The notes beneath the pieces are model-generated. The model did no database searches. It worked only from the letters and a program-made list of their open reading frames with translations, and was not told the origin of the DNA. This document shows positions 1-11,513 of a stretch of DNA of 64,000 nt, piece after piece. The stretch is from NCBI RefSeq assembly GCF_024505045.1, contig NZ_JANIBM010000001.1, positions 310,001 through 374,000 of the forward strand, read 5' to 3'. This DNA comes from Methylomonas aurea (GTDB lineage: Bacteria > Pseudomonadota > Gammaproteobacteria > Methylococcales > Methylomonadaceae). The position numbers and the translations under genes were made by a program. The number at the start of each line of letters is the position of its first letter. The first letter of the stretch is position 1.

Positions 1-426
1 CCGCCTCCGGCGCCGCGCTTTTCAACCCGGGGCATCGTCTATCAGGGCCATGACTATCGCGCGGAGCAACATCCGGCCGCTGCTGAACTCTCTTCGGATG
101 AACTGAGCGGTCTGGGCTGTTGCGCCGGCAAAGTTCAGGGAGTGGTACATGTGGTCAGAGATCCCGGCCAGACCCGCCTAAGTCCCGGCGAGATCTTGGT
201 CGCGGAATTCACCGATCCGGGCTGGATAATGCTGTTTCCGGCGGCGGCCGGCATCGTCGTCGAACGCGGCAGCCTGTTGTCGCATTCGGCCATCGTTGCC
301 CGCGAGTTGGGAATTCCGGCAATTGTGGGGGTAAACAATGCCACCCAATTGCTGAAGGATGGTGACCGGATAACAATGGACGGCGCGACGGGTCTGATTC
401 ATCGTTTGGCCGACGCATCGCCATGA
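1..426 (+). CDS. PEP-utilising enzyme, swivelling phosphohistidine domain (5' partial)
   Basis: The frame is open from the first base and the start lies outside the window; 141 residues are visible. Around visible residues 90-110 sits the PEP-utilising mobile-domain signature, G-S-L-L-S-H-S-A-I-V-A-R-E-L-G-I-P-A, with the phospho-accepting His encoded at 283-285. This domain swings between an ATP-grasp site and a second active site and carries phosphate on that His. Here it ends the protein. In PEP synthase and pyruvate phosphate dikinase it is central and followed by a TIM barrel. A C-terminal position is known from rifampicin phosphotransferase-type enzymes, so that architecture is the more likely one; the substrate is unknown. 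The stop overlaps the next start (ATGA), so the two genes are translationally coupled. Confidence 0.85.
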   Translation, partial: PPPAPRFSTRGIVYQGHDYRAEQHPAAAELSSDELSGLGCCAGKVQGVVHVVRDPGQTRLSPGEILVAEFTDPGWIMLFPAAAGIVVERGSLLSHSAIVARELGIPAIVGVNNATQLLKDGDRITMDGATGLIHRLADASP

Positions 427-1520
427 CTACCGAAATTGCCGCCAATGCCGATTTCAGCACCATCCGTTACGCGCAGTGTTGGGAGGATGCCGACGTATTG
501 TTGAAAGCACTGGCGATTCGGCCGGGGGATGTTTGCTTATCGATCGCCTCGGCCGGCGATAACTGTCTGGCCATGCTCGCTCACGACCCCAGCCGGGTGA
601 TTGCGCTGGATATCAGCCCGGCCCAATTGTACTGTCTGGAACTACGCATCGCGGCCTACCGCAACCTGGAACATCCGGAACTCCTGGAACTGATCGGGTC
701 CCGTCCCAGCATCAGGCGCTTGCAGCTTTACCAACACTGTCGCCCGTCATTAAGCCAAAATGCCCGCTGTTTCTGGGACGAGCGTCGAACGGCGATCGAA
801 CAAGGCATAGGCAGCGCCGGCAAATTCGAACGCTACTTTAGTTTGTTTAGACGTTATATCTTGCCGCTGATACACGGGCGCACCACTGTGGTTCAAATGC
901 TGCGAGGCGGCAACGCTAGCGAGCGGGAGGCGTTTTATTCGAGGATTTGGGATAACCGGCGCTGGCGCTTATTGTTTCGTTTGTTCTTTTCCCGGCTGGT
1001 GATGGGTCGTCTCGGGCGCGATCCGAGTTTTTTCCGTTATGTTGAAGGTGGAATCGCCGAGCGCCTAATGGAACGGACTCGTCACGCGCTGGTGGCATTA
1101 AATCCCAAGGACAATCCTTATCTGCACTGGATCGTGACCGGCCGCCACGGCGAGGCATTGCCGTTCGCTTTGCGCGCGGAAAACTTCGCTACCATCCGCA
1201 ACAACCTGGATCGCCTGGAATGGCGTTGCTGCGCGTTGGAAGACTTTCTATCATCAAACGACCGGCCGACTATCCAGCGCTTTAATCTCAGCGACATTTT
1301 CGAATATATGGCCGAATCGCAGTATCTGGCCTTGCTGCGTGACCTTGTTTCGGCAGCATCGCCCGGAGCGCGGCTGGTTTACTGGAACCTGTTGGCTCCG
1401 CGCCGAAGACCCCAAAGCATGGCTGAGCAACTGCACTCGCTGGACGAACTGGCGGTATCGTTGCATGGCCAGGATAAGGCTTTTTTTTATGGGGCGTTGA
1501 TCGTGGAGGAAGTGTTTTGA
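423..1520 (+). CDS. DUF3419 / BtaA-like SAM aminocarboxypropyl transferase
   Basis: A 365-residue protein of the DUF3419 family, whose characterised member BtaA moves the 3-amino-3-carboxypropyl group of SAM onto diacylglycerol in betaine-lipid synthesis. Family hallmarks are IRYAQCWEDADVLL at about 14-27 and LSIASAGDNCLAML at about 39-52, followed by VIALDISPAQL, which corresponds to the Rossmann SAM-binding region. No BtaB-type N-methyltransferase is visible beside it, so the product may be a homoserine-type lipid or something different; that is inference. It overlaps the gene before it by 4 bases, and the next gene starts inside its stop codon. Both junctions point to one operon. Confidence 0.85.
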   Translation: MTTEIAANADFSTIRYAQCWEDADVLLKALAIRPGDVCLSIASAGDNCLAMLAHDPSRVIALDISPAQLYCLELRIAAYRNLEHPELLELIGSRPSIRRLQLYQHCRPSLSQNARCFWDERRTAIEQGIGSAGKFERYFSLFRRYILPLIHGRTTVVQMLRGGNASEREAFYSRIWDNRRWRLLFRLFFSRLVMGRLGRDPSFFRYVEGGIAERLMERTRHALVALNPKDNPYLHWIVTGRHGEALPFALRAENFATIRNNLDRLEWRCCALEDFLSSNDRPTIQRFNLSDIFEYMAESQYLALLRDLVSAASPGARLVYWNLLAPRRRPQSMAEQLHSLDELAVSLHGQDKAFFYGALIVEEVF

Positions 1521-2866
1521 TCGTAGGATCTTGGCCGGCAATGGCTCTGGTGCTGGCGGTATTGATCGCCTTATTCATGGCGGTAAACCACTTCCGCCAA
1601 CGATTGAAATTGCAGCCGGAAATCAGCCGAAAAATGTTGCACATTGGTATGGGGCCCATCATCCTCGCCTTTCCATGGCTATTTGCTTCGGCATGGCCGG
1701 TATTGGCCTTGTGCGCCTGCGTGCTCGTCACCCTGTCGATATTGCGTTCACGGCTCGCGGTGGGTGTATTCGCCGATTGGGGCCATAGCCTGAACGACAT
1801 TCAAAGATCGTCCTGGGGAGATTTTTGTTATCCATTGGCGACGGCTATCTTGTTTGTTGCCGCCGATCAAGAGCCGCTGCTGTTTGTGATTCCGATGCTG
1901 CTGCTGATCATCGCCGATGCGGCAGCGGCGTTGATCGGCCAGAGTTACGGCATGCATGCCTACCAAACCTTGGACGGGACCAAGACCATCGAAGGCTCGT
2001 TTGCGTTTTTTCAGTTTGCCTTTCTAAGCGTATTACTGCCACTGATTCTGTTTACCGAAGTCGGCCGACGGGAAACGGTGCTGATCGCGCTGATGCTCGG
2101 GCTGCTGGTGACCTTATTCGAAGCGGTCGCCTGGCGCGGCCTGGATAATTTGTTCGTGCCGCTGGGCGGATACTTGCTGTTAAAAATCTATTTGGCGCTG
2201 GACATGTCGCAATTATTTGCCAGAGCCTTGGTACTGTGCACGCTGCTCGCCGTCATCTTCTTCCTGCGCCGCCGCACCACGTTGAACGACAGCGGTGTCA
2301 TCGGCTCGGTATTAGCCGGCTATGTCAGTTGGGCCATTGGCGGTTGGCATTGGCTGCTGCCGCCCGTCATCACGCTGTGCTTTTATTCGTTGATCGTCCC
2401 TCGGCCTCGCAATCGACAGGGGCGTCACTCCGACGTGCAGTCGGTGTTTTACGTGACCGCGCCCGGCCTGTTCTGGCTATTTTTAGGCCATACCCTGAAT
2501 AAACCCTTCTTGGTATTGCCCTACACCATCGCTTACGGTTTGCAGTTGTCGATGAGCTCGGTTGCGAGGCGCCGTTTTCTCGGCAATCCCGCGCTCATCG
2601 CCGTAGTCGGTAACAGCGCTTTGGAGGGCTGGTTGTTGATGCTAATTCCTGTGTTATTGCTACAGGAAGCTACTAGCGCAACGCTTTGGGCGCTACTGCC
2701 GATCAATGGTTTGGTGGCGTGGTTTTTTGCTTGCTCGCAAGCGCCTCGGCCAGACTATCCAATGGATATGCCGCGGCTCCGCGTCCAAACCTGGATCGCG
2801 TTGGCGATTTCCATAATTTGCTGGTTTCTGTTGGATGTTTGGCAAAAGTCATGGAACGCCTATTAA
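1517..2866 (+). CDS. polytopic phytol/dolichol-kinase-like membrane protein with DUF92-like second half
   Basis: A 449-residue inner-membrane protein with roughly a dozen hydrophobic helices. The N-terminal half has the polyprenol/phytol kinase and CDP-diacylglycerol synthase-type motif E-I-S-R-K-M-L-H-I-G (about residues 35-44) and a D-G-T-K-T-I-E-G-S loop. The second half (T-L-N-D-S-G-V-I-G-S-V-L-A-G-Y) resembles DUF92 membrane proteins. This suggests a fusion of two related lipid-phosphate modules. The start chosen is TTG at 1517: a GGAGG sits 7-8 bases upstream and the codon overlaps the previous TGA. An ATG at 1541 is the alternative. Likely role: phosphorylation or cytidylation of an isoprenoid or glyceride lipid in this operon, inferred from family and context. 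Confidence 0.75.
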   Translation: MIVGSWPAMALVLAVLIALFMAVNHFRQRLKLQPEISRKMLHIGMGPIILAFPWLFASAWPVLALCACVLVTLSILRSRLAVGVFADWGHSLNDIQRSSWGDFCYPLATAILFVAADQEPLLFVIPMLLLIIADAAAALIGQSYGMHAYQTLDGTKTIEGSFAFFQFAFLSVLLPLILFTEVGRRETVLIALMLGLLVTLFEAVAWRGLDNLFVPLGGYLLLKIYLALDMSQLFARALVLCTLLAVIFFLRRRTTLNDSGVIGSVLAGYVSWAIGGWHWLLPPVITLCFYSLIVPRPRNRQGRHSDVQSVFYVTAPGLFWLFLGHTLNKPFLVLPYTIAYGLQLSMSSVARRRFLGNPALIAVVGNSALEGWLLMLIPVLLLQEATSATLWALLPINGLVAWFFACSQAPRPDYPMDMPRLRVQTWIALAISIICWFLLDVWQKSWNAY

Positions 2867-3861
2867 CCCTCAATCACCCTCAACAGCTGGCGGATTTTCC
2901 GACCACGGGAGTGCTTAGCGATTTTCAACCAAGTCACTTGATTTTGAATAAGCCGGATCAAATTTTACTGGCTTTGGACGAAAATCAAGTACCGCTCGCC
3001 CGTTGTTCGCTATGGTGGACCAATTTACCGTCTTATGGCTCCGAACGGCTGGGGTACATCGGCCACTATGCTGCATCCAGCCGCGCAGTTTCGGATTTAC
3101 TGCTACGCTCGGCGTGCCGAGGCTTGGCTGCCCAAGGGTGCACACTGGCCATCGGGCCAATAGATGGCAATACCTGGCATCATTACCGATTTGTCACCGA
3201 GCCTGGAAATCGGCCGCCATTTTTTCTAGAACCCTTCAATCCGGCAATTTGGCCGCAATTCTGGCTGGATGCGGGTTTCTCTGCGTTGGCCGGTTATACG
3301 TCAGCGATCAGCACCGAACTTGGAAAGTCGGCTCGTGATTTGAATCATGCTGCCCAGCGCTTCACGAGACTGGGTATCAAGGTTCGCCAACTGCAAATGA
3401 CCCGTTACGAGAGGGAGTTGAGCGCTATCTACCGGATTTCCGTCAGCGCTTTTGCCAACAATTTTCTGTATACGCCATTAGCTGAGAACGAATTTTTGGA
3501 CCTCTATGCTCCAATCAAAGCTTACATTCGTCCGGAAATGGTGTTGCTGGCGGAAGACGAGCAAGGCCCACTTGCTTTCTTGTTCACCGTACCGGACATC
3601 TTGCAACGACGCCGAGGAGAAATCATTGATACGGCTGTCATTAAAACGGTTGCCGCGATTCCGTCAAGCAAGACCCAAGGCTTGGGTGCGTTTCTGGTCG
3701 CCCAGGCCATGCCTATTTACCATGATTTGGGCTACCGGTGTGCTATTCATGCCCTGATGCATGAACACAACGCGTCGCGGAATGTCAGCCGTCATCAAGC
3801 CAACGTTCAAACCATACGGCGCTACTCGCTGTTCGCCAAGCACCTTGGATCGGAAACATGA
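2851..3861 (+). CDS. GNAT-like acyltransferase, function unknown
   Basis: A 336-residue protein. The start is placed at ATG 2851, 16 bases inside the previous gene; an upstream in-frame codon at 2686 would lie deep inside that gene and is rejected. The C-terminal half looks like a GNAT acyl-CoA N-acyltransferase fold: a core strand near LLAEDEQGPLAFLFTV, then S-K-T-Q-G-L-G-A-F-L corresponding to the pyrophosphate-binding Q/R-x-x-G-x-G/A loop, then a helix and a final strand. The N-terminal half is not recognisable. It could add an acyl group to the amino group installed by the BtaA-like enzyme; that is speculation from position. It overlaps the ligase downstream by 4 bases (ATGA). Confidence 0.65.
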   Translation: MERLLTLNHPQQLADFPTTGVLSDFQPSHLILNKPDQILLALDENQVPLARCSLWWTNLPSYGSERLGYIGHYAASSRAVSDLLLRSACRGLAAQGCTLAIGPIDGNTWHHYRFVTEPGNRPPFFLEPFNPAIWPQFWLDAGFSALAGYTSAISTELGKSARDLNHAAQRFTRLGIKVRQLQMTRYERELSAIYRISVSAFANNFLYTPLAENEFLDLYAPIKAYIRPEMVLLAEDEQGPLAFLFTVPDILQRRRGEIIDTAVIKTVAAIPSSKTQGLGAFLVAQAMPIYHDLGYRCAIHALMHEHNASRNVSRHQANVQTIRRYSLFAKHLGSET

Positions 3862-5447
3862 ATCTCACCGAATTATTCATGGAGCGGGTTACGCTGTCGC
3901 CCCGGCAAATCGCGCTGATCGCATCCGGTGCGAGGAAAGCCCGAAGCCTTAGTTTTGCCGATTTGGAGGCGGCATCGGCGAATGTTGCTCAATGCTTGCA
4001 ACGCTGCGGCCTGGGCAAGGGCGACAAGATTTTGCTGTTACTGCCGGTTTCGATAGAGTTGTATGTGGTGCTGTTGGCGATATTTCGCTTAGGATTGGTC
4101 GCGGTGTTTCCATCTCCGTCAGGGGGAATGACAGGCGTCGGAAGCTGCTGCCGGCGGGTAAAGCCCAAGGGACTCATCGGCACTGCGGGTGCACTAAGTC
4201 TTCAGTTATTGTCGACTGAGCTATGGCGGATTCCATTGAAATTTTCTTGCGGCCTGCCTTTTCCGGGCGCCACCTCATTGTCGATGGCAGCAAAAAAACC
4301 ATCAGCGGTAAGTCTTGTCGATTGTGATCGTGATCACCCGGCCTTGATTACCTTCACCAGTGGCAGTAGCGGTGTCGCCAAGGGCACGATTCGCAGTCAC
4401 GGTTTACTGATCGCTCAGTACCAAGCGCTCGTCGACGCAACACAATTGAAAGCCGGTGAAATCGATTTGGCAACCTTGCCGGTATTTGTGCTGGCCAATC
4501 TTGCCGCCGGGGTTACCACATTGATTGCGGATACCGATCTGCGCCATCCCGGCAAGGTCAACGCCAAAGCCGTGCTGAAACAAATTGAAACTTTTGGCCC
4601 CACGCGCGCGACGGCATCGCCTGCATTTTTTGCCGGTCTAGCCAAAGCCTGTCTGGAAAAAAACGTTCGGCTATCCAGTTTAAACAAGATTTACACCGGC
4701 GGCGCGCCGGTATTCCCGGATATCATCGACCAATTGACGACATTGGCGCCTGCGGCCGATATCGTCTGTTTGTACGGTTCCACCGAAGCGGAACCCATCG
4801 CACTGGTGCGTTATTCACAGTTGACCACCAACGACAAAGCCGCTATCGGCGCCGGCGCCGGCTTGCCGGCGGGATATCCGGTACCGCAGATAGACCTTAG
4901 AATATTGCCCGACCGCTGGGGACAGCCCATAGGCCCGTTTTCAGCCGAAAGTTTCGCCAGCGAAATTCTGCCTGCCAATGCCTGCGGCGAAATCGTGGTC
5001 GGTGGCGATCACGTCCTCGCGGGCTATCTGGATGGCCTGGGCGATGAAGAAAGCAAATTTGCCGTCGCCGGGCGAATCTGGCATCGAACCGGCGATGCAG
5101 GTTATCTGGACGAACAGGGACGGCTATGGTTGGTTGGCAAGTGTGTTGCCCGCATTTGCGACGATCGGGGTGAACTCTATCCTTTGACGGTCGAAGCCGC
5201 CTGCAGAAGCTTTACCGAGATTCGCAATGTCGCGATGGTCTCTCATCGAGGCCGGCGATTATTGCTGCTGGAAAGCGATGCAGACCGTCAAGCCGATTTG
5301 GCCGTAATCCGGGACAAACTTGGTTGGGCGTGTGTCGACGCCGTTCGGACTGTTCCGTTGATTCCACTCGACTCGCGGCATAATGCCAAGATCGACTATC
5401 AGGCGTTGTTTAAACTACTGTCGAAACTCCACTTCGATGGTGCCTGA
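3858..5447 (+). CDS. AMP-forming acyl ligase, OleC-like
   Basis: A 529-residue member of the ANL superfamily (acyl-CoA synthetases, NRPS adenylation domains), which activate a carboxylate as acyl-AMP. Visible motifs are the phosphate loop T-F-T-S-G-S-S-G-V-A-K-G, Y-G-S-T-E-A-E-P (A5), H-R-T-G-D-A-G-Y-L-D (A7) and a C-terminal N-A-K-I-D that supplies the catalytic Lys. The region reading S-P-A-F-F-A-G-L ... G-G-A-P-V followed by Y-G-S-T-E-A is reminiscent of OleC beta-lactone synthetases, though no oleA, oleB or oleD lies nearby. A fatty-acid activating role feeding the neighbouring acyltransferase is equally possible. It is coupled to the upstream gene by a 4-base overlap. Confidence 0.85.
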   Translation: MNLTELFMERVTLSPRQIALIASGARKARSLSFADLEAASANVAQCLQRCGLGKGDKILLLLPVSIELYVVLLAIFRLGLVAVFPSPSGGMTGVGSCCRRVKPKGLIGTAGALSLQLLSTELWRIPLKFSCGLPFPGATSLSMAAKKPSAVSLVDCDRDHPALITFTSGSSGVAKGTIRSHGLLIAQYQALVDATQLKAGEIDLATLPVFVLANLAAGVTTLIADTDLRHPGKVNAKAVLKQIETFGPTRATASPAFFAGLAKACLEKNVRLSSLNKIYTGGAPVFPDIIDQLTTLAPAADIVCLYGSTEAEPIALVRYSQLTTNDKAAIGAGAGLPAGYPVPQIDLRILPDRWGQPIGPFSAESFASEILPANACGEIVVGGDHVLAGYLDGLGDEESKFAVAGRIWHRTGDAGYLDEQGRLWLVGKCVARICDDRGELYPLTVEAACRSFTEIRNVAMVSHRGRRLLLLESDADRQADLAVIRDKLGWACVDAVRTVPLIPLDSRHNAKIDYQALFKLLSKLHFDGA

Positions 5448-5465
5448 CCCCGTACCACCGCTAAA

Positions 5466-6161
5466 ATGGAAAACCTTATGAACACTATAGATTCTCCTCT
5501 TTACAGCATTCGGGACGTGAGATTTTCTTACGATTTTGGCAACCTCAAGGCGCCGGCCCTCAATGGTGTATCCCTGGACATCCGGCAAGGCGACTTTATT
5601 TGCCTGACAGGCCCTTCGGGTTCGGGAAAAACCACGTTGCTGAATCTGCTCGGCCTGATCGAAGCGGTGCAGGATGGCGATATCCACTTCAATACCAACA
5701 GCCTGAAGACATTGACGGAACGAGAAAAAAATCGGGTCCGCCGCTATCAAATCGGCTTTGTATTCCAGACTTTTCAGCTATTTCCGGTGTTAACGGCGGC
5801 CGAGAACGTCGAATATTTCCTCACCCGGCAGGGTATCCCGACCACGGAACGCAAAAACCGAGTCAAAGACGCCTTAGCCGCCGTCGGCATCTTGGATCAG
5901 TCCGACAAGAAACCGGCTGAAATGAGTGGCGGCCAGCGGCAAAGGGTAGCAATAGCCAGAGCTATTGCTAAACGTCCTCGGGTGATCATCGCCGATGAAC
6001 CCACCGCCAATCTGGATCAGGCTACTGGCAAAGGGGTGATGGAAATTTTTGCCAAGTTGAACCACGATCACCAAATCAGCTTGATCATTTCGAGCCATGA
6101 TCCGATGGTACAAAGTTATTCACGTCATCAAGTTCGGCTGGTAGACGGAAAAATATGTTAA
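5466..6161 (+). CDS. ABC transporter ATP-binding protein, LolD/MacB class
   Basis: A 231-residue ATPase of the LolD/MacB/FtsE class. Walker A G-P-S-G-S-G-K-T lies at 49-56, the signature M-S-G-G-Q at 153-157, and Walker B V-I-I-A-D-E-P at 173-179. These ATPases power mechanotransmission rather than classical substrate translocation, often moving lipids or lipoproteins. A second ATG at 5478 has a GGAAA 7-8 bases before it and may be the true start. The gene lies 18 bases after the ligase and overlaps the permease, so it is probably part of the same operon and drives export of its product. Confidence 0.9.
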   Translation: MENLMNTIDSPLYSIRDVRFSYDFGNLKAPALNGVSLDIRQGDFICLTGPSGSGKTTLLNLLGLIEAVQDGDIHFNTNSLKTLTEREKNRVRRYQIGFVFQTFQLFPVLTAAENVEYFLTRQGIPTTERKNRVKDALAAVGILDQSDKKPAEMSGGQRQRVAIARAIAKRPRVIIADEPTANLDQATGKGVMEIFAKLNHDHQISLIISSHDPMVQSYSRHQVRLVDGKIC

Positions 6162-7360
6162 TTAAACTGGCAACCCGTAACCTGTTCCGCAATCCCAGAC
6201 GCACGTTGGCTGTTCTTTTGACCATTGCCATGGGAACCGGATCTTTGTTCATTTTTCACGGCTTCAACAACGGTATCATGAACCAGTATCGGGATAACTG
6301 CATTCATGCCCGTTACGGCCACGGTCAGATCAACACACGTGGCTATCGCGATCAGGTATTCGCAAAGCCCTGGGAACATTGGATAGCCGACTGGGCTCCC
6401 TTGGCGGAGCGCCTCCGCACAATTACGGGCGTTGAACTGCTGTTTCCTAGACTGGAGTTTTCCGCCTTGTTGACCAATGGGACTGTCACGATCAGCGGCC
6501 ACGGCCAAGCTATCGACGGTGAAGCTGAATCCGGCTTTTTCAATACCCTGAATATCGTAGAAGGACAAACCTTGGGCGCACAAGTTGACGGAATTTTGTT
6601 GGGTAAAGGCTTGGCTAGTGGGCTCGATGCCCATCCTGGCAAGGTATTGACCGTTATGGTTCAGGACATCAACGGCCAGCTGCAGCAGGCAAATCTGACG
6701 GTGACCGGGATCTTTCATACCGGATCCAAGGAATTCGACGATGTGATGTTTCGCGTGCCTTTACGTCATGGCCAAAAGTTGCTGAAAACCAACCGTATCG
6801 AGACCTTGGCCTTGGGCTTAAGTTCGCTGGACGACTGGCCGGCAGTCGCCAATTTAGTCAATGAAGAATTTGTTGACCTGGAAGCGGTGCCGTTTGCGAA
6901 ACTCGACGAAGTCTATTACCAGCATTCGGTCGATTGGTTGGCAGCCCAGTTTGGCGTGATTCATTTGATCATTCTGGGTATCGTCATTTTGGGCATTTTC
7001 AATACGGTTTCCACTTCCGTCTTGGAGCGTAAACAAGAAATCGGTAATTTGCGCGCTAATGGCGAATCTAAATCCGATATCATGCTGCTGTTGGTTTGGG
7101 AAGGGATTACGCTGGGCGTACTCGGCGCCGGACTCGGATTGATCGTTGCACTGGGGTTGGATTTTTTCCTTTTGCGCGAAGGCATCCTGATGCCGCCCGC
7201 GCCAGGCTTGACCAGACAATTTCGAGTACTGATTGAATTTCAACCATCGATGGCTTTAATCACATTTGGTCTTGGTTCGTCCTCGGCATTGCTTGCAACG
7301 ATGCTTGCGAGCGCACGGGTAGTACGGGCTAGTATCGGCGACGCTTTACGATCGGTATAA
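6155..7360 (+). CDS. FtsX-family ABC permease, LolE/MacB class
   Basis: A 401-residue permease that overlaps its ATPase by 7 bases. The topology is that of the FtsX/MacB superfamily: one N-terminal membrane helix (about 12-34), a large periplasmic domain (about 40-260) and three C-terminal helices (about 265-290, 305-335, 365-390). The cytoplasmic loop L-E-R-K-Q-E-I-G-N-L-R-A-N-G-E is the coupling segment that contacts the ATPase. Family members extract lipoproteins or lipids from the outer leaflet of the inner membrane. As last gene of the operon it most likely exports the lipid-like product made upstream. The dedicated lol system should be elsewhere, so this is probably a specialised paralogue. 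Confidence 0.88.
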   Translation: MLIKLATRNLFRNPRRTLAVLLTIAMGTGSLFIFHGFNNGIMNQYRDNCIHARYGHGQINTRGYRDQVFAKPWEHWIADWAPLAERLRTITGVELLFPRLEFSALLTNGTVTISGHGQAIDGEAESGFFNTLNIVEGQTLGAQVDGILLGKGLASGLDAHPGKVLTVMVQDINGQLQQANLTVTGIFHTGSKEFDDVMFRVPLRHGQKLLKTNRIETLALGLSSLDDWPAVANLVNEEFVDLEAVPFAKLDEVYYQHSVDWLAAQFGVIHLIILGIVILGIFNTVSTSVLERKQEIGNLRANGESKSDIMLLLVWEGITLGVLGAGLGLIVALGLDFFLLREGILMPPAPGLTRQFRVLIEFQPSMALITFGLGSSSALLATMLASARVVRASIGDALRSV

Positions 7361-9658: not shown

Positions 9659-9758
9659 GAAAGTATGGCGATTCACACGCTAGCTATTAAACCGTTTTAG
9701 ATTCATGTTATTTACCCGGCTGGCTTTTGTGCTAGCCACTGACTCCAAAGGTAACCGT

Positions 9759-10439
9759 ATGAAATATGCCTTCGCACTGGTATTGACAGCCTCATTGATC
9801 AGCTTTACCGGTTGTGTCAGTCGAGACATCCATGAAGCCGTCGAAGACCGCGGCCCGCAAGTGGCCTTTGCACCGTTGCCGCAAGCCAGCCGCCTGACGG
9901 TGGCGGTGTCCCGCTTTACCAACGAATCGGTCTATGGCAGCGGCTTGTTTACCGATCAATCCGGCGATCGGATTGGCAAGCAGGCGGCCGATTTGTTGTC
10001 GCGCCATCTGATGGCAACCCAGCATTTCAATGTCGTGGAGCGGCAGGACATCAGCAAACTCAAATCCGAAGCCGAATTGATGGGCAAGAGCGAACCGGAA
10101 TTCAAACAAAATCTGCTCGGCGTCGATGCCTTGATCATGGGCTCGGTGGTGGAGTTGGGACGCGATACCACCGGCGGTGTCTGGCTGATCGGTAAGGAAA
10201 AAACTCAACGGGCGCGGGCGCGGGTGGTGTTGCGCTTGGTCGATCCGAAAACCGGCCAAGTGTTCTATAGCCAGGAAGGCAGCGGCGAAGCGTCGATTTC
10301 CTCGACCGCGACGCTGGGATTTGGCGGCACGGCAGGCTTTGATTCGACGCTGGAAGGCAAGGCCATCGATGCGGCCATTGTGAATATGATCAACAACGTG
10401 GTCAGTACCTTGGAAGCACGCGGCAAAGCCCAGCCGTAA
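9759..10439 (+). CDS. CsgG/HfaB-like outer-membrane lipoprotein
   Basis: A 226-residue lipoprotein. ATG 9759 is preferred because an AAAGGT lies about 7 bases before it and the product begins with a lipoprotein signal ending S-F-T-G-C (Cys19); the longer frame from 9705 would disrupt this. The body, with L-T-V-A-V-S-R-F-T-N-E-S, L-S-R-H-L-M-A-T-Q-H-F-N-V-V-E-R and V-D-A-L-I-M-G-S-V-V-E-L, matches the CsgG fold, whose prototype forms the curli secretion pore. No curli subunit gene is nearby. It is the first gene of a lipoprotein trio with DUF4810 and DUF799 proteins, a recurrent bacterial arrangement, and lies behind the riboswitch candidate. Confidence 0.85.
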   Translation: MKYAFALVLTASLISFTGCVSRDIHEAVEDRGPQVAFAPLPQASRLTVAVSRFTNESVYGSGLFTDQSGDRIGKQAADLLSRHLMATQHFNVVERQDISKLKSEAELMGKSEPEFKQNLLGVDALIMGSVVELGRDTTGGVWLIGKEKTQRARARVVLRLVDPKTGQVFYSQEGSGEASISSTATLGFGGTAGFDSTLEGKAIDAAIVNMINNVVSTLEARGKAQP

Positions 10440-10461
10440 ACCTTTCAAAGTAGGGAAGCGG

Positions 10462-10890
10462 ATGATGCTTAACCGTCTTGGGACAAGGTATGTTGGCGAG
10501 TCCGCTATTGGAATCGCCATGTCGTTGGTGCTTTCCGGCTGCGCACCGCAAGGCTTGTTTTATTGGGGCGACTACGAAAGCAGTCTCTACGAACGCTATG
10601 TCGACAATAACAGCCAGCATACCGATGCCTATTTGCGCGATACGATTACCGCAGCCGAGCAGCATCAGCGCCGCGTGCCGCCGGGTGTGTATGCCGACTA
10701 CGGTTTTTTATTGTACACCCGCGGCGATAAAGCCCGCGCCATCGCCTACTTTCAGAAAGAACGCACGCTGTATCCGGAATCCACGGCGTTGATGAACAAA
10801 TTGATCGAGAAAATTCAGCAGCAAGAAAAAACGCCGGAGCCGAACAGCGAAACCGCCGTACTTCCCACGCAACAGCGGGCCGCGCCATGA
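10462..10890 (+). CDS. DUF4810 lipoprotein
   Basis: A 142-residue lipoprotein with lipobox L-S-G-C (Cys27) and the DUF4810 signature right after it, G-L-F-Y-W-G-D-Y-E-S-S-L-Y. The middle resembles a single TPR-like helical hairpin (Y-G-F-L-L-Y-T-R-G-D-K-A-R-A-I-A-Y-F), followed by a low-complexity tail. Two adjacent ATGs (10462, 10465) are possible starts, with an AGGGA about 8 bases upstream. It lies 22 bases after the CsgG-like gene and overlaps the next gene by 4 bases (ATGA), so the three are one operon. DUF4810 has no established biochemical role; a chaperone or adaptor role for the CsgG-like pore is inference. Confidence 0.85.
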   Translation: MMLNRLGTRYVGESAIGIAMSLVLSGCAPQGLFYWGDYESSLYERYVDNNSQHTDAYLRDTITAAEQHQRRVPPGVYADYGFLLYTRGDKARAIAYFQKERTLYPESTALMNKLIEKIQQQEKTPEPNSETAVLPTQQRAAP

Positions 10891-11513
10891 GAATTGGGTT
10901 TAGTCTGTTAATCGTCTGCCTGTTGCAAGCGTGCGTCGCGCCGCAGCATCTTAATTTGGACGCGTTTTATGCACATCCGCCCCGTTCGATCGTGGTGGTG
11001 CCGGTGGTCAACGAGTCGCCGGAAGTAACCGCCAATTCGGTTTTCATCACCACTATCACTCAACCGCTGGCCGAACGCGGCTATTACGTGTTTCCGGTGT
11101 ATTTGACCGACATGATTCTGCGCGATTTCGGGCTGGTAGAAGCGGGACATATTCACTTATTACCGGCCGAACGCTTCTACGAACTGTTCGGCGCCGACGC
11201 GGTGCTGTTGGTGACGATCAAGGATTGGAGTACCAAGTATCTGGTACTGGCATCGTCGGTGGTGGTCGAAATGGAATATGTCCTGAAAGACACCAGGACC
11301 GGCACCGTGCTTTGGCAGAACAAGCAAACTTATGCGCAGAATTCCGGTGGCGGCGATCCTATCGCGATGGCGATTTCAGCGGCAATCAATGCGCTGATCA
11401 CCGATTATTTGCCGCTGGCCAGGCAAGCCAATTTCATGGCGTTGCAACCGCCAAAGGGTCTTCCCGCCGGGCCTTACCATCCGGAGTATCAGCAAGACAA
11501 AGGCAAGTTTTGA
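10887..11513 (+). CDS. DUF799 (GNA1162-family) lipoprotein
   Basis: A 208-residue lipoprotein with signal peptide ending L-Q-A-C (Cys16). The DUF799/GNA1162 signature is clear: P-R-S-I-V-V-V-P-V-V-N-E-S-P-E-V near residues 32-47, then P-L-A-E-R-G-Y-Y-V-F-P-V and L-F-G-A-D-A-V-L-L-V-T-I. GNA1162 is known as a surface-exposed neisserial lipoprotein. The fold, as in CsgG, has an alternating strand and helix pattern. It is the last gene of the riboswitch operon, so a cyclic dinucleotide would set the level of all three envelope lipoproteins together. Confidence 0.87.
   Translation: MRIGFSLLIVCLLQACVAPQHLNLDAFYAHPPRSIVVVPVVNESPEVTANSVFITTITQPLAERGYYVFPVYLTDMILRDFGLVEAGHIHLLPAERFYELFGADAVLLVTIKDWSTKYLVLASSVVVEMEYVLKDTRTGTVLWQNKQTYAQNSGGGDPIAMAISAAINALITDYLPLARQANFMALQPPKGLPAGPYHPEYQQDKGKF

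Follow-up and report, generated by a model that had tools for sequence, protein, structure and literature searches.

A conserved gene cluster with a reworked HMG-CoA reductase homologue in Methylomonas aurea and its possible isoprenoid amino-lipid product

What does the tight run of biosynthetic genes at one end of a 64,000-nucleotide stretch of the Methylomonas aurea genome make? The stretch, hereafter the window, is C1:310001-374000, where C1 is contig NZ_JANIBM010000001.1 and window base 1 is C1:310001. A sequence-only reading had described seven tightly joined genes here, with 4- to 16-base overlaps and one 18-base gap, and all of these gene calls and joints were verified. The window edge is not the operon start, however, and cuts the gene of a PPS/rifampin phosphotransferase (RPH)-like protein that begins at C1:307766, 2.2 kb before the window. 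In the upstream stretch C1:296001-314000, a homologue of 3-hydroxy-3-methylglutaryl (HMG)-CoA reductase (HMGR) and a UbiA prenyltransferase, both missed by that reading, directly precede the full PPS-like gene. The HMGR homologue is thus the first gene of the operon, some 4.4 kb before the window, and the nine genes of the operon form one run from C1:305568 to C1:317360, all on the + strand (Table 1). The two upstream genes alter the expected chemistry, adding an isoprenoid part and a thioester reduction. We conclude that most of this run belongs to a conserved cluster that looks undescribed and includes a reworked HMGR. We give a probability of about 50% to the reading that the operon, spread horizontally, encodes the pathway of an undescribed lipid that bears an isoprenoid and is aminocarboxypropylated and N-acylated.

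Scanning 84,980 species genomes gave 320 relatives of the DUF3419 protein of this type, and the loci of the best 80 of the 320 were retrieved. As loci were picked via DUF3419, they give no measure of how often the other cluster genes stand alone. The conserved set comprises seven genes, encoding HMGR, UbiA, the PPS/RPH-like phosphotransferase, DUF3419, a phytol-kinase-like protein, a tandem GNAT and an OleC-like ligase. By reading of open reading frames, all seven were found at 31 loci besides the window, with dozens more carrying most of them; the remaining loci were mostly cut by contig ends or were without HMGR and/or the kinase-like gene. The common order was HMGR-UbiA-PPS-DUF3419-kinase-GNAT-ligase, with a permuted order, GNAT-ligase-HMGR-UbiA-PPS-DUF3419-kinase, at four loci (L082, L087, L099 and L115); the GNAT and ligase genes were a fixed pair across loci. 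Cluster loci span about 13 phyla, as assigned from sequence-record titles, which may be wrong for metagenome bins. Since the same gene order recurs across phyla, the set is not a product of chance. The sequence-only reading had named scattered homologues as the outcome that would count against it; the homologues instead co-occur in order, and its idea of a single undescribed-looking pathway is supported. No description of this cluster was found in the open-licence papers searched, though one may exist elsewhere.

Not every locus is complete. A five-gene version without HMGR and the kinase-like gene occurs in Calothrix and some Verrucomicrobiota, and a few cyanobacteria (L072, L076 and L114) have no other cluster gene within 10 kb of DUF3419. 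The presence of HMGR went with that of a full-length kinase-like protein (39/5 versus 2/13 loci, Fisher p = 1.8e-7), a link that is not significant given kinship, as only three independent changes fall on supported branches. Apart from P450/PAP2 genes (8 loci), recurrence of flanking genes was mostly synteny among close relatives.

Within Pseudomonadota the cluster is rare, its UbiA being found in one of 398 sampled genomes. At class level, DUF3419 of this type was present in 5 of 274 genomes, and within the genus the HMGR homologue occurred in 1 of 37. DUF3419 relatives with 46–62% identity lie in four more gammaproteobacterial genomes and on one Roseinatronobacter plasmid, surrounded by the same neighbours where the contig is long enough, except at L037, where only PPS and DUF3419 were matched. 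In the DUF3419 tree the window sequence is placed beside one from Eremiobacterota (support 90), away from the other Gammaproteobacteria. This patchy distribution is likely to have arisen by horizontal transfer.

The HMGR homologue, which among solved structures comes closest to an archaeal class I HMGR (6hr7, 3e-83), combines an intact catalytic centre with an altered substrate pocket. In human HMGR, HMG is held by Arg590, Ser684, Asp690, Lys691, Lys692, Lys735 and Asn755, with Lys735 bridging the terminal HMG carboxylate (PMC9500038). The catalytic tetrad Glu559/Lys691/Asp767/His866 (human numbering throughout) is invariant in all 43 sequences aligned, and Arg590, Asp690, Lys691, Lys692 and Asn755 are kept. 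By contrast, the alignment has Ser684 replaced by Glu in 43 of 43, and Lys735 is never Lys (Met in 38, Ile in 2, and Phe, Ala and Val in one each). In the numbering of the homologue itself, the two replacing residues are Glu244 and Met294. The NADPH-loop motif DAMGMN is changed to DA[AS]GQN, and the homologue scores 316.8 bits against the NADPH-HMGR model, under its cut-off of 441.8.

The genomic context also differs from that of a mevalonate pathway. The host genome (4.8 Mb, 99.98% complete) encodes two AMO/PMO-family subunits, which mark a methane or ammonia oxidiser, most likely a methanotroph. It encodes GcpE of the methylerythritol phosphate (MEP) pathway, has the cluster copy as its sole HMGR and has no HMG-CoA synthase. 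Among 40 genomes with this DUF3419 type, only two weak matches to HMG-CoA synthase exceeded the cut-off. HMGR in these 40 genomes was almost always the one in the cluster, and genomes whose locus is without HMGR usually have none elsewhere; the exceptions were Leptolyngbya and Roseofilum, which have a lone DUF3419 and HMGR elsewhere, and one genome with two copies. A mevalonate pathway was therefore rejected, HMG-CoA synthase being absent and the substrate pocket altered. A sole HMGR beside the MEP pathway and no HMG-CoA synthase suggests that the homologue probably reduces another thioester; judged from the alignment alone, HMG-CoA is unlikely to be its substrate.

The DUF3419 protein is a clear family member (PF11899, 240 bits against a cut-off of 28.2) that is separated from the betaine-lipid enzyme BtaA. 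In a quick tree with long branches among the non-cluster sequences, the 82 cluster sequences and the other DUF3419 proteins lie on opposite sides of a branch with SH-aLRT 99, and Trp321 and other fixed differences set the cluster proteins apart from BtaA. Ser43, Gly45, Asn47 and Asp63 of the S-adenosylmethionine (SAM) core are common to cluster DUF3419 and BtaB-linked BtaA, hence cluster DUF3419 is likely to use SAM, and the group transferred would be 3-amino-3-carboxypropyl. The sequence-only reading had noted that BtaB is missing, and this holds throughout: BtaB was found beside none of 85 cluster loci, compared with 15 of 21 BtaA-type loci, using a profile built from 8 of those 15. An ordinary betaine-lipid pathway was rejected as a full account, given the missing BtaB and the extra genes. 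A PDB sequence search with DUF3419 gave nothing useful.

DUF3419 proteins were also seen in two other settings. On the - strand at L040:5183-10092 (G299:C30), a different DUF3419 is flanked by genes for a LuxI-like autoinducer synthase and an acyl-CoA-dehydrogenase-like protein, next to AMP-ligase-like and ketoacyl-synthase-III-like genes (named by eye from the sequence), and is possibly part of another aminocarboxypropyl pathway. A third neighbourhood type without BtaB, on Rhizobium plasmid pMK-2 (L123:835-5155) and in Shinella oryzae (L124:763-5152), has DUF3419 adjoining a 'CoF synthetase'-type ligase, an MBL-fold protein and an oxidoreductase.

The other five conserved proteins were assigned to families by Pfam/NCBIfam, the GNAT and kinase-like proteins also by AlphaFold models and PDB comparison. 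The PPS-like protein matched only PF01326 and PF00391 (PPDK_N 7e-59, PEP-utilizers 3e-28), with no Pfam match to the C-terminal PEP/pyruvate-binding barrel that PEP synthase has. PPDK_N with a C-terminal His domain and no barrel is the RPH architecture; however, the RPH equivalog scored 337 bits against a cut-off of 999. Its active-site motifs are intact, the catalytic His840 is invariant in 66 homologues, and its nearest solved structures, 5fbs and 5hv1, are filed as PEP synthase, though we take both to be RPH. UbiA just exceeds its profile cut-off (35.3 versus 34.2 bits), has two near-invariant Asp-rich motifs and is 46–55% identical to cluster homologues across phyla. It is a distant superfamily member, the nearest solved relative being digeranylgeranylglyceryl phosphate synthase (2e-4, profile).

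The N-terminal half of the kinase-like protein resembles CTP-dependent phytol/dolichol kinases and CdsA, and the C-terminal half is weakly like DUF92 (15.7 bits, under the cut-off of 27.5). There was no Pfam kinase match, and a PDB sequence search gave nothing useful. The AlphaFold model (pLDDT 91.5) matched CdsA best (Z 9.1, 169 residues, root-mean-square deviation 6.1), which is only suggestive because unrelated helical proteins reach Z 7.5. The active-site motifs are intact, and the conserved signatures ERK..H / D..A / K.EG / DN..P presumably fit CTP-dependent lipid-alcohol kinases; some loci carry the N-terminal half only. The GNAT protein has two GNAT domains in one chain, and its model (pLDDT 93.7) gave full-length matches to tandem GNATs at Z 18–22, including MAB_4324 (Z 22.1 over 287 residues) and mycothiol synthase (Z 19.8). 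Acetyltransf_1 was found in 44 of 49 homologues, with active-site motifs intact. The ligase scored 347 bits to PRK09274 and has all adenylate-forming motifs, including an invariant A10 Lys511. It is OleC-like, as the sequence-only reading had it, but falls under the OleC equivalog cut-offs (213 and 202 bits versus 900 and 850).

Table 1. Genes of the nine-gene run; coordinates are window positions unless prefixed by C1
Gene product	Coordinates	Strand	Remarks
HMGR homologue, 422 aa	C1:305568-306836	+	outside window
UbiA prenyltransferase, 304 aa	C1:306841-307755	+	outside window
PPS/rifampin-phosphotransferase-like, 886 aa	C1:307766-310426	+	window 1..426 = C-terminal His (swivelling) domain
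DUF3419 protein, presumed SAM 3-amino-3-carboxypropyl transferase	423..1520	+	PF11899 5e-71; 4-base overlap with PPS-like
Phytol-kinase-like membrane protein, 449 aa	1517..2866	+	TTG start; 4-base overlap with DUF3419
Tandem GNAT N-acyltransferase, 336 aa	2851..3861	+	ATG at 2851; 16-base overlap with kinase-like gene
OleC-like adenylate-forming ligase	3858..5447	+	AMP-binding 1.5e-44; 4-base overlap with GNAT
LolD/DevA-like ABC ATPase, accessory	5466..6161	+	ABC_tran 1.5e-35; 18-base gap after ligase
LolE/MacB-like FtsX-type permease, accessory	6155..7360	+	FtsX 7e-15, MacB_PCD 1.3e-10; 7-base overlap with LolD-like

Upstream, on the + strand, glycogen phosphorylase is followed by a 77-base gap, the HMGR homologue, a 4-base gap, UbiA, a 10-base gap and the PPS-like gene. 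Promoter and terminator scans showed no enrichment over shuffled sequence. Further along the window, at 9705-11513, three adjoining genes resemble, by eye only, CsgG-like lipoprotein, DUF4810-like and DUF799-like proteins.

The LolD/LolE-type pair, which the sequence-only reading had made part of the pathway, lies outside the conserved set. LolE relatives were absent from 84 further loci, only the window itself being matched, hence the pair was rejected as a core member. The ATPase scored 188 bits to the LolD model (cut-off 307.75), with its best score to a DevA exporter model, and the permease 84.6 bits to the lolCE model (cut-off 362.45); the best LolE relative within the genus is a 29% identical paralogue. 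Other cluster loci have an MMPL transporter in place of LolDE (by Pfam at L062, L091 and L119, with a similar protein at L077 by clustering) or no transporter, while the L085 locus ends in a LolD-like ATPase. Export of the product is plausible.

Accessory genes vary between loci. Lipid-type accessories include an MGDG-synthase-like glycosyltransferase (L046) and a PAP2 phosphatase-P450 fusion just upstream of the cluster (L071:2892-4880), with separate P450 or PAP2 genes near seven others. Variable tailoring genes encode P450, 2-oxoglutarate (2OG) dioxygenase, class-III aminotransferase and formyltransferase. In some Verrucomicrobiota (L043:4634-9278 and L084:4650-9334) the cluster is accompanied by a second PPS-like gene and an 830–840-aa class-III aminotransferase, which bears a long C-terminus without family assignment. 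A variant cluster at L085:2358-12316 has a formyltransferase-domain protein and no GNAT that we could find, with the LolD-like ATPase at the contig end.

From the enzyme families we infer the substrates, order of steps, product and exporter role as follows. The DUF3419 protein would transfer 3-amino-3-carboxypropyl from SAM to a lipid hydroxyl, and the ligase would activate an acid, fatty or hydroxy, whose acyl group the tandem GNAT would pass to the new amine; an aminocarboxypropyl step followed by acylation, as the sequence-only reading had proposed, is plausible. The phytol-kinase-like protein may phosphorylate a polyprenol or similar lipid alcohol and so supply UbiA, which would attach the prenyl chain. 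The HMGR homologue would form an alcohol by reducing an acyl thioester other than HMG-CoA, and the PPS/RPH-like enzyme may use its His domain for ATP-dependent phosphorylation of an intermediate. The LolDE-like pair of this genome would probably extract the product from the inner membrane. More broadly, though with a probability somewhat below one half, the cluster may make isoprenoid amino lipids, or lipid-like cofactors, of a class not recognised before, spread over about 13 phyla by horizontal transfer, with the HMGR fold recruited for a different thioester.

Several points weigh against the isoprenoid amino lipid. Conservation of the cluster does not extend to LolDE, the five-gene versions indicate that the HMGR and kinase-like steps are not needed everywhere, UbiA might work as a cyclase or on an aromatic ring, and soluble small molecules could serve as acceptors for DUF3419 and GNAT. 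The product might be a small-molecule natural product, secreted or bound to the cell, such as a meroterpenoid or prenylated amino acid, with the ABC pair acting as a MacB/Dev-type efflux pump. The patchy, horizontally spread distribution (a single carrier among the genus genomes, and the Eremiobacterota affinity of DUF3419), the variable tailoring genes and the DevA-like ATPase favour such a product, but the conserved set is without a polyketide or peptide assembly line and includes integral membrane enzymes (UbiA and the kinase-like protein), and the MMPL and MGDG-synthase-like neighbours suggest lipids; we consider it unlikely, yet a serious candidate.

It is improbable that the cluster is a variant betaine-lipid pathway, in which DUF3419 would make a diacylglyceryl-homoserine-like lipid that is N-acylated instead of N-methylated. 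The family and its shared SAM-core residues, the lack of BtaB and the fixed pairing of GNAT with an acyl ligase are as expected, but UbiA, HMGR, PPS-like and kinase-like genes would be left unexplained, and the DUF3419 clade lies apart from BtaA with its own Trp321 and other fixed differences. More improbable still is a partial mevalonate or isoprenoid-salvage module, where HMGR would yield mevalonate and the kinase would recycle prenols that UbiA uses to make quinones or pigments: although the tetrad is intact and phytol-kinase-like and UbiA genes are linked, HMG carboxylate ligands are replaced, GcpE is present and HMG-CoA synthase is missing from the genome and nearly so from the 40 genomes.

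If the isoprenoid amino lipid is correct, the cluster represents a class of lipids or natural products that is widespread and has producers open to cultivation, namely Calothrix PCC 7103 with the five-gene form, and Desulfobulbus rhabdoformis DSM 8777 and Roseinatronobacter sp. S2 with the longer form. DUF3419 would have a role beyond betaine lipids, and the HMGR fold, the statin target, would perform other chemistry in MEP-pathway bacteria, hence a bacterial HMGR gene would be no proof of a mevalonate pathway.

Several components have a known counterpart from which they depart. The cluster shares with the BtaA/BtaB pathway the DUF3419 fold, SAM-core residues and presumed aminocarboxypropyl transfer, but has no BtaB, a separate DUF3419 clade and six other enzymes. 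The HMGR homologue is alike to class I HMGR (6hr7; human 1dq8) over its full length, in catalytic residues and in Arg590, Lys692 and Asn755, and unlike it in Ser684 to Glu, Lys735 to Met, DA[AS]GQN and a host without the mevalonate pathway. RPH, PigC-RedH type ligases and PEP synthase resemble the PPS-like protein in length and in their ATP-grasp and swivelling His domains, and RPH also in being without the barrel, whereas the PPS-like protein scores under every equivalog cut-off. The kinase-like protein has an N-half with the signatures and a suggestively CdsA-like fold and a C-half weakly like DUF92, as do phytol kinase VTE5 and phytyl-phosphate kinase VTE6 (DUF92) between them, but fuses both in one chain with no Pfam kinase match. 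The ligase has the adenylate-forming core, all motifs and the RHNAKI-type A10 motif of the olefin beta-lactone synthetase OleC, yet scores far under its cut-offs, and no Ole neighbours were noted. Finally, like the LolCDE lipoprotein exporter, the accessory pair combines an ATPase with an FtsX/MacB-type permease; unlike LolCDE, it has a single permease gene, scores under the Lol cut-offs and is absent from the other clusters.

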